Positions 3,359-39,851 of a stretch of DNA of 39,851 nucleotides are shown here, one piece after another. Made by a program: the position numbers and the translations under genes. Source of the stretch: Pirellulales bacterium. Its GTDB lineage: Bacteria; Planctomycetota; Planctomycetia; Pirellulales; JADZDJ01. Under the pieces are notes generated by a model. That model had not been told where the DNA came from and did no database searches. It was given only the letters and a program-made list of their open reading frames with translations. The stretch covers positions 1 through 39,851 of the forward strand of contig JADZDJ010000153.1 in assembly GCA_020851115.1 (NCBI GenBank). The letters run 5' to 3'. How positions within the stretch are numbered: position 1 is the stretch's first letter; the number at the start of each line of letters is the position of its first letter.

Positions 3359-4777
3359 ATGCTGCTCGCGCTTTCAACGACTCACGAACCGGCCACGGAC
3401 CTCGGCTATTTGCTGCACAAGCATCCGGGGAAGTGCCAATCGTTTGACCTGAGTTTTGGCAAAGCCCACGTGTTCTACCCGGAGGCAAGCGAGACACTCT
3501 GTACAGCTTGCTTGTTGCTGGATGTGGACCCGGTAGGGCTGGTTCGTGGCAAGGGCGATTGGCAACAAGGGCTCCTTGACCAGTACGTCAATGACCGTCC
3601 CTTTGTCGCCTCGTCTTTGATGAGTGTTGCAATATCACAGGTCTTCGGTTCGGCACTGGCAGGTCGGTCGAAGGAACGGGCGGAAATGGTCGATAGGCCG
3701 ATTCCGCTTTCGGCTCGCATCGATGTGCTACCGGTACGTGGCGGGGCTGAAATGCTTCAACGGGTGTTCGAGCCATTGGGCTACACTATCCAGGCAACGC
3801 GGCATCCGCTTGACGAACAATTTCCCGATTGGGGCGAAGGTCCGTATTTCTCGGTGCAATTGGACCAGACCACCACGGTCGCTCGGCTTTTGCAGCATCT
3901 GTATGTGCTCATTCCCGTTTTTGATGGCAAGAAGCACTACTACATTGGTCAGGACGAAGTCGAAAAGTTGCTTTCCAAGGGCGAGACATGGCTATCAGAG
4001 CACCCCGAGCGGGAGTTCATCACGCAACGATACCTGACCAAGAGACAAAGTCTTATACGTCAGGCGTTGGCTCGGTTGGTGGAAGAGGAATCTGTTGAGA
4101 CCGATGAAGAATATACGGACGGAGATTCGGCGTTGCCGGAGCGGTCTGAACGTGAACTAACTCTGCATGAGCAGCGGCTTGGGGCGGTGCTCGCGGTGAT
4201 TCGTTCGACAGGAGCAAAACGAGTCGTCGACTTGGGCTGCGGCGAGGGAAAGCTGCTCCGCGAACTGCTTGCCGACCAACAGTTCACTGAGATTCTCGGC
4301 ATGGACGTGTCTGTCCGGTCGCTGGAAATTGCTCATCGGCGATTGAAACTCGACCGGCTCCCGGAGCGACAGCGGGAGCGAATTCGGCTGGTCCACGGGG
4401 CACTTACCTACCGCGACGCGAGGCTAAACAACTTTGACGCCGCTGCGATTGTCGAAGTTATCGAGCACCTTGACCTACCCAGGCTGAAGGCTTTCGAGCG
4501 AGTCGTGTTCGAGCATGCCCGGCCACGTACCGTCGTATTGACGACACCAAACCGTGAATACAACGTCGTGTGGGAGTCGCTCCCCGCCGGAGAGATGCGA
4601 CATAGCGACCACCGTTTCGAATGGTCACGGAAAGAGTTTGAGGAGTGGGCTTGTGGAATTGCGGAACGATTCGGGTATTCAACTCGCTTCCTTCCAATTG
4701 GGCCAGACGAGCCTGGAGTGGGTCCACCGTCGCAAATGGCAGTTTTCACTGACGTGTCAAGCACACAACTGATTTGA
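3359..4777 (+). CDS. hen1: 3'-terminal RNA ribose 2'-O-methyltransferase Hen1
   Basis: This is bacterial Hen1, which uses SAM to methylate the 2'-OH of the 3'-terminal ribose at an RNA break before ligation, making the repaired site resistant to the same ribotoxin. The N-terminal half (about 1-240) is the Hen1-specific domain that, in known systems, is needed to activate Pnkp ligase. The C-terminal half is a Rossmann methyltransferase: SAM motif VVDLGCGEGK at about 289-298, metal/catalytic residues in EVIEHL at about 365-370, and a downstream His in RHSDHRFEW at about 412-420. At 472 aa it is full length. AGAAGG about 9 nt before the ATG may serve as the ribosome site. Its TGA directly abuts the ATG of pnkp, so the pair is a translationally coupled two-gene operon. 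Confidence 0.95.
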   Translation: MLLALSTTHEPATDLGYLLHKHPGKCQSFDLSFGKAHVFYPEASETLCTACLLLDVDPVGLVRGKGDWQQGLLDQYVNDRPFVASSLMSVAISQVFGSALAGRSKERAEMVDRPIPLSARIDVLPVRGGAEMLQRVFEPLGYTIQATRHPLDEQFPDWGEGPYFSVQLDQTTTVARLLQHLYVLIPVFDGKKHYYIGQDEVEKLLSKGETWLSEHPEREFITQRYLTKRQSLIRQALARLVEEESVETDEEYTDGDSALPERSERELTLHEQRLGAVLAVIRSTGAKRVVDLGCGEGKLLRELLADQQFTEILGMDVSVRSLEIAHRRLKLDRLPERQRERIRLVHGALTYRDARLNNFDAAAIVEVIEHLDLPRLKAFERVVFEHARPRTVVLTTPNREYNVVWESLPAGEMRHSDHRFEWSRKEFEEWACGIAERFGYSTRFLPIGPDEPGVGPPSQMAVFTDVSSTQLI

Positions 4778-7381: not shown

Positions 7382-7551
7382 GGCAAATGGCAAGGGAGGC
7401 CGACGGTGCATAGGGGCCTCAAGAAACCGTGTTCTAGCCACTCATATGCTTGTCATGCTATTCCTTTACTTCATTTTCGCTCCATCCGGCACTCTCGGAG
7501 CAAAGCCGGGGCTGCGGGACAGTTGGCCACTGCTGGAAATAGCATGCCGAG

Positions 7552-38745: not shown

Positions 38746-39474
38746 TCAGCAGATACGTTTTTTCTCTGACGTGGTGAGTTGGGAGTTTAACGTTGGAAGC
38801 GCAGGATCGATCAGCTTCGCTTCGGCGAATCCTTTGGCCCGTAAAATACAAGCATCGCATTGGCCGCAAAGTTTGCCATGGGCGTTCGGGTCGTAGCAAC
38901 TGTGGGTGAGGCTGTAATCGACCTTCAACTGGCTGCCGCAGCGGATGATTTCCGCTTTCGTCATGCCGATCAGCGGTGTATGAATCTTGAACGCTAGCGA
39001 GCCTTCAACACCCGCTTTCGTAGCCAGGTTGGCTAATTTTTCGAAGGCGGCAATGAATTCGGGTCGGCAATCTGGATAGCCGCTATAATCGATGGCGTTA
39101 ACGCCGAGAAAGATGTCGGCGGTCGCGGTCACTTCGGCATATGCCAGCGCGATCGATAAAATCACTGTGTTGCGGGCTGGGACATAGGTGACGGGAATGG
39201 ATTGCTCCATTTCGGCAGATGAGCGGCCTTTTGGGACGGCAATGTCGTCGGTCAGCGCGCTGTGGCCGAAGCGGGCGAGGTCGATTTTGACGACTTCGTG
39301 TCGCCTCACGCCAAGGTGTTGGGCGACTTTGGCGGCAGCCACAAGTTCGAAGCGATGGCGCTGACCGTAATCGACCGAGAGAGCATGGAGGTCGAAACCT
39401 TCGGCACGGGCAATCGCACCGGTGGTGGCGGAATCGAGACCGCCGGAAAGGAGCAAAATTGCGGGACGGGGCAA
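38746..39474 (-). CDS. queC: 7-cyano-7-deazaguanine synthase QueC
   Basis: The 242-aa protein has the PP-loop [11 protein letters not shown] (7-17), the YGQRHRFE loop, and the C-terminal zinc cysteines [17 protein letters not shown] (about 193-209). QueC turns 7-carboxy-7-deazaguanine, ammonia and ATP into preQ0, the queuosine/7-deazaguanine precursor. The frame can start only at TTG 39474; no ribosome site lies before it, because the (GGTTCAG)12 array starts three bases upstream. The repeat has stops in every minus frame, so translation cannot run through it. Expression may thus be unusual. No other que genes are in the window. The true start could also be internal. Confidence 0.92.
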
Positions 39475-39476
39475 GG

Positions 39477-39563
39477 CAGGGTTCAGGGTTCAGGGTTCAG
39501 GGTTCAGGGTTCAGGGTTCAGGGTTCAGGGTTCAGGGTTCAGGGTTCAGGGTTCAGGGTTCAG
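39477..39563. repeat. (GGTTCAG)12 heptanucleotide tandem array
   Basis: Twelve perfect copies of GGTTCAG run from 39480 to 39563, with a partial CAG before. On the minus strand the unit is CTGAACC, which has a stop in all three frames every 21 nt. On the plus strand it is open in all three frames. The array abuts the TTG start of queC. Perfect short arrays of this kind gain and lose units by slippage. Confidence 0.97.
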
Positions 39564-39728
39564 CACGGCCGATGCCTTTTTGATACTAATTTTGAATCTT
39601 ATCCTGTCCTGGAGCCATGGGTCAGGGGGCTACGCTCTCAGTGCCTATCCGAAAAGTCTTCTCATGTTTTTCGAGCGGTCATGCGGCGACGCGGCAGTGC
39701 CGTCGACCACGTTGGCTCTAGGGACTAA

Positions 39729-39851
39729 GAGGGTGTTTCTTAATTGCTAGCATCGGTGCTGTCGGCTGGGCGGCCGGCAGAGGCGGTGGAGCATGAGCTG
39801 GATCATGGCGATTTGGATCATCGCTTCGCTGTTCTCGCAGAGTTCCTCGTA
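39729..39851 (-). mobile_element. IS5-type insertion sequence, 3' end (cut by window edge)
   Basis: The minus frame ending at the TAG (39747-39749) reads YEELCENSEAMIQIAMIQLM then LHRL, the C-terminal end of IS5-family transposases (DYEELxExSEAxIxIAMIxLMLRR). The coding part runs off the window at 39851. GAGGGTGTTTC at 39729-39739 looks like the outer terminal repeat, and TAA/CTA next to it fits a 3-bp target duplication. The rest of the IS lies outside. Confidence 0.75.

Follow-up and report, generated by a model that had tools for sequence, protein, structure and literature searches.

Twelve heptamers in perfect tandem lie beside the start codon of queC on this contig, and the question is whether they form a switch dedicated to that gene or belong to a repeat family with a wider distribution. 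The window, i.e., the whole stretch of 39,851 nt that was analysed, was compared with the rest of its own draft genome (G000, 5.2 Mb), with the queC loci of relatives, and with other genomes of the phylum.

The heptamer array and the start of queC

A TRF scan of the whole window returned a single array (39477-39563, period 7, 12.4 copies, 100% match). The features around it are as follows:

38746-39474, minus strand: queC, 7-cyano-7-deazaguanine synthase, 242 aa, TTG start (TIGR00364 and orthologs)
39472-39474, minus strand: TTG start codon of queC (aligned with the ATG of relatives)
39477-39563, no strand: heptamer array (TRF and sequence)
39564-39724, no strand: 161-nt spacer between the array and the insertion sequence (genome self-comparison)
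39725-39851, minus strand: terminal part of an insertion-sequence-like element (more than 12 partial genomic copies; interrupted by the contig end)

On the plus strand the array reads CAG followed by (GGTTCAG)12, which is (CTGAACC)12CTG in the sense of queC. The gene was assigned by NCBIfam TIGR00364 (QueC, E 7e-60). Its TTG is separated from the array by 2 nt (39475-39476), and relatives L013 and L027 have the ATG of MPRPAVVLLSGG at the aligned position. The last in-frame stop is a TGA within the array; from there to the conserved LLSGGLDS motif, this TTG was the sole ATG, GTG, or TTG, the three codons covered by the start call; a CTG within the array is formally a possible start. The initial annotation had placed twelve perfect heptamers at the only start of queC, and these results bear it out. 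The C-rich strand, which is the sense strand of queC, carried TGA in every frame, whereas the G-rich strand had no stops in any frame. The frame check thus agreed with the earlier proposal that, with a 7-nt unit and stops in all minus frames, a change in copy number would alter the 5' leader only. The array had also been said to replace the ribosome site of queC; however, most queC orthologs lack a Shine-Dalgarno (SD) sequence as well, so that no queC SD was replaced.

Among about 30 relatives, no GGTTCAG array was found before queC, which rules out a conserved queC regulatory element made of this unit. Other clear 7-periodic sequence preceded queC in two relatives only, as CCACCAG (L012) and CCCCTAT (L039). 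In the metagenome-assembled genome SJ322 (G057), whose queC is 75% identical, an array of the GGGGATA unit, written (CCCCTAT)n in the sense of queC, stands before the gene. When the upstream regions of queC, rpsS, and ilvC were compared with themselves at lags 4-12, lag 7 gave the most strong self-matches (at least 10 of 14), with 9 observed and 1 expected from shuffles. Three of the five strongest cases at this lag were in G000 and two in relatives, and only the relatives' cases are independent, as the three genes had been picked for their G000 arrays.

The surroundings upstream of queC were also compared. The 161-nt spacer was not repeated in the rest of the genome save for one short 91% match, and genome matches to the insertion-sequence-like element began at about query base 162. 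A sigma-70 consensus was sought near queC on the queC strand, the spacer included, and was not found; a native queC promoter, if any, would have to be confined to 39564-39724. Many relatives carry queF and queC as divergent neighbours, and the spacer that separates the two genes is conserved. In G000, queF lies on a different contig from queC and only 161 nt separate the array from an insertion sequence, indicating that the region upstream of queC has been rearranged. The motif ATTGTG(G/C)CA(T/A)(G/C)AT was conserved in the divergent queF-queC spacer at ten loci of relatives (L010, L011, L013, L014, L016, L019, L020, L027, L028, and L029), where it is possibly a shared queF-queC promoter. It was not found upstream of queC in G000.

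The two strands of the array differ in predicted structure. The template strand of queC holds a canonical G-quadruplex motif, built from twelve GGG tracts that are separated by TTCA loops of 4 nt (G4Hunter 1.1). With RNA parameters, the predicted fold of the G-rich strand was -25.1 kcal/mol with quadruplexes and -10.9 kcal/mol without them; motif and energy together predict that this strand can form a G-quadruplex. The C-rich strand was predicted to be unpaired, and the predicted accessibility of the queC start changed from 0.45-0.59 at 0-8 units to about 0.7 at 12-16 units.

Dispersal and placement of the GGTTCAG family

The two-unit GGTTCAG word gave 49 matches at about 38 places in G000, whereas the reversed control gave 0. 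This count and the perfect TRF run rule out chance or low complexity as the origin of the array. Three-unit GGTTCAG arrays were present in 8 of 57 Pirellulales genomes (497 matches in G006), as well as in 6 out of a sample of 294 genomes spread over the phylum Planctomycetota. Among 34 arrays in the examined G000 loci, 29 had two copies, 3 had three, 1 had four, and the queC array had twelve, which is three times the copy number of the next longest array. A preference for four units was therefore absent from G000. Few other 7-periodic repeats were seen in a spread 236 kb sample of G000 (two of the sampled contigs were masked with N), indicating that heptamers are not pervasive there. The unit GGGGATA had 108 matches in G057, with copy-number peaks at two and five. 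A search of the literature for the GGTTCAG unit in Planctomycetes returned nothing specific. Two further occurrences were observed. At L133:1501 in genome G024, a chain of heptads drifts through TGGTTGG, GTTCAGG, ATTCGGG, and ATTTGGG while the 7-nt step is retained. On four viral-classed IMG/VR contigs (L146, L147, L153, and L158), GGTTCAG arrays converge in pairs at gene junctions, and the spacer between the paired arrays holds GCGCAAGCGG.

The position of the arrays relative to genes was determined with calls from a simple home-made codon-score script, on sampled stretches rather than whole genomes and with some contigs masked. By these calls, intergenic arrays made up 24/34 in G000, 28/30 in G006, and 29/30 in G057, compared with an intergenic null of 20-27%. 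The G-rich strand had its 5' end next to the nearest ORF edge, start or stop alike. In G000, 18 of the 24 intergenic arrays were within 25 nt of the 5'-side ORF edge (15 starts and 3 stops; null 19%, p 5e-9), in a sample chosen by array matches and against random positions in the same stretches; the 5'-side ORF was the closer one in 16/22 cases, a marginal result (p 0.052). The corresponding count in G006 was 24/28, and the within-25-nt test was not significant in that genome (p 0.07). For the GGGGATA arrays of G057, the 5'-side ORF was closer in 28/29 cases, and 22 of 29 arrays were within 25 nt of its edge (12 starts and 10 stops, p 2e-12). In the relatives G001 and G002, 13 of 18 arrays were within 40 nt of a start. 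One array position, at a gldF-like gene (L180/L258), was common to G000 and G001.

Because the stops on the C-rich strand of GGTTCAG force called starts to lie beside the arrays, the placement at starts may be partly an annotation artefact. The C-rich strand of GGGGATA, TATCCCC, is open in all frames and has the opposite stop bias, yet the polarity rule still held at starts; the objection is thereby weakened at starts, though not at stops. At the stops of GGGGATA, where a few arrays overlap the ORF, a TAG borne by the array may play a part.

The genes beside the arrays are ordinary housekeeping genes and do not make up a contingency-gene set. In G000, start-adjacent arrays precede rpsS, ilvC (KARI), and the gene for the NADH dehydrogenase 30 kDa subunit (nuoC-like), and also coaD-like, CCA-adding enzyme, thiolase, subtilase, and other genes. 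The only array-adjacent gene common to the G000 and G057 samples was queC, which was known beforehand. The rpsS array (L185:3025-3038) stands where G002 (L279) has a hairpin followed by GGAGG; here, unlike at queC, the heptamers do appear to occupy the site of an SD sequence.

Ten of the 34 G000 arrays lay inside ORFs, all with the G-rich strand in sense, an orientation largely explained by that strand being open in all frames. They include the following, all within housekeeping ORFs:

L177:2378-2391, G-rich strand sense: array inside mnmG
L170:1018-1031, G-rich strand sense: array inside moeA
L171:3012-3032, G-rich strand sense: array inside valS (short)
L187:3040-3060 and 7441-7454, G-rich strand sense: ORF-internal arrays
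L162:2992-3005 and 4199-4212, G-rich strand sense: ORF-internal arrays
L167:3004-3031, G-rich strand sense: ORF-internal array

The arrays in mnmG and moeA lie in extra in-frame segments of roughly 55 residues that are absent from PDB homologs, with more degenerate heptads around the arrays.

Origin and possible effect of the queC array

These results indicate that the queC array is probably the longest member found of a dispersed family of G-rich heptamers at gene edges, and not a queC switch. A phase switch dedicated to queC, as suggested in the initial annotation, does not fit the occurrence of GGTTCAG at the starts and stops of housekeeping genes throughout the genome, nor the fact that 29 of 34 arrays have two copies and are thus poor substrates for slippage. 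Arrays may begin as short runs of heptads close to gene edges and lengthen now and then through replication slippage; at queC, this process would have led to 12 units. Slippage of the queC array is plausible since it is three times longer than the longest of the other G000 arrays. The array would then form an unstructured C-rich 5' leader beside the queC start, with a template strand predicted to be capable of forming G-quadruplexes. An effect on queC expression is possible; it would be slight, acting through the length of the leader, through transcription, or through how accessible the start is, and would not involve on/off switching of the reading frame.

An alternative is a selected rheostat for queC, in which the gain or loss of 7-nt units by slippage alters the leader length, the distance from promoter to start, or the strength of the quadruplex, and so tunes preQ0 synthesis from cell to cell. 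The twelve perfect copies, against at most four in other G000 arrays, their position right at the start codon, the upward drift of predicted start accessibility with unit number, and the array of another unit before queC in SJ322 all speak for it. However, the family is mostly two-copy and located at housekeeping genes, and nearly all queC loci of relatives are without a clear heptamer array, so we consider a selected rheostat unlikely. The C-rich heptads might instead act in translation initiation, by providing a leader that lacks both structure and an SD sequence and to which ribosomal protein S1, or another RNA-binding protein like it, attaches, by analogy with the role proposed for the TAACTGA repeats of Beggiatoaceae (MacGregor 2015, PMC4679880). 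Such a role would suit the 15 of 24 intergenic G000 arrays that are at most 25 nt from a start with the C-rich strand in the mRNA, the rpsS array at the site of GGAGG in G002, and the predicted lack of pairing in the C-rich RNA, but a start signal leaves unexplained that 10 of the 22 close arrays in SJ322 adjoin a stop codon and have their G-rich strand in sense, and we regard this role as rather improbable. It is also conceivable, with a very low probability in our estimate, that the array is a passive by-product: owing to the insertion sequence and the loss of the divergent queF-queC unit, the upstream region would have been under little constraint, and a repeat could have expanded there with no effect on queC. 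The divergent queF of many relatives, its location on another contig in G000, and the insertion sequence 161 nt past the array are in keeping with such a history, which nevertheless leaves the placement rule at the other G000 arrays unaccounted for. Rearrangement could explain why the queC array is so long and is, in this respect, compatible with membership in a dispersed family.

A broader idea, which we also think unlikely, is that an active process in Pirellulales lays heptads at ORF edges with a fixed polarity and with a G-rich unit of its own in each lineage, such that the position and the 7-nt step are conserved and the sequence is not. If this were true, orthologous edges such as that of queC would carry different heptamers, i.e., GGTTCAG here and GGGGATA in SJ322. 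For queC itself, the finding is a modest one. The heptamers of Planctomycetota, with lineage-specific units of the same polarity, allow the placement rule to be separated from sequence and also from codon effects, as the two units have opposite stop-codon bias, and they provide comparative material for asking how the 7-nt step and the polarity are determined.

Comparison with known repeat systems

The queC array resembles phase-variable contingency loci in being a perfect short tandem repeat at the 5' end of a gene that could slip in principle. It differs from them in that no frame shift is possible, the gene has no surface or host-interaction role, and the unit also occurs at housekeeping genes.

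The TAACTGA repeats of marine Beggiatoaceae and cyanobacteria stand directly before SD-less starts, including those of ribosomal protein genes (MacGregor 2015, PMC4679880). The arrays described here share with them a 7-nt unit, 2-6 copies as a rule, a position before SD-less starts, ribosomal protein genes included, and some occurrence in ORFs. In contrast, the TAACTGA repeats are not G-rich, are not quadruplex-capable, and are oriented mainly to start codons, and their unit and phylum are unrelated to those of the present arrays.

The rule of placement at ORF edges is shared by the GGGNATC and GGGGA(C/T)T heptamers of Xanthomonas and Nostoc (Rehm et al. 2015, PMC4692102). Many of the GGGNATC repeats are transcribed and they form quadruplexes in vitro, with no demonstrated function; phase variation was judged unlikely by the authors, and the Xanthomonas repeats show a preference for four units (PMC4692102). 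The present arrays differ from these in their unit, which is GGTTCAG (GGGTTCA), or GGGGATA in the relative, and not GGGNATC, in their planctomycetal host, in having no four-unit preference in G000, and in the 10/34 G000 arrays inside ORFs, all in sense. Both are dispersed, G-rich heptamers that are capable of forming quadruplexes (here by prediction) and that obey the same placement rule. With a unit containing a G3 tract, at least two copies, many loci, mostly intergenic positions, and a 5'-side polarity, the GGTTCAG repeats have the features of dispersed, ORF-edge, G-rich heptamer SSRs.
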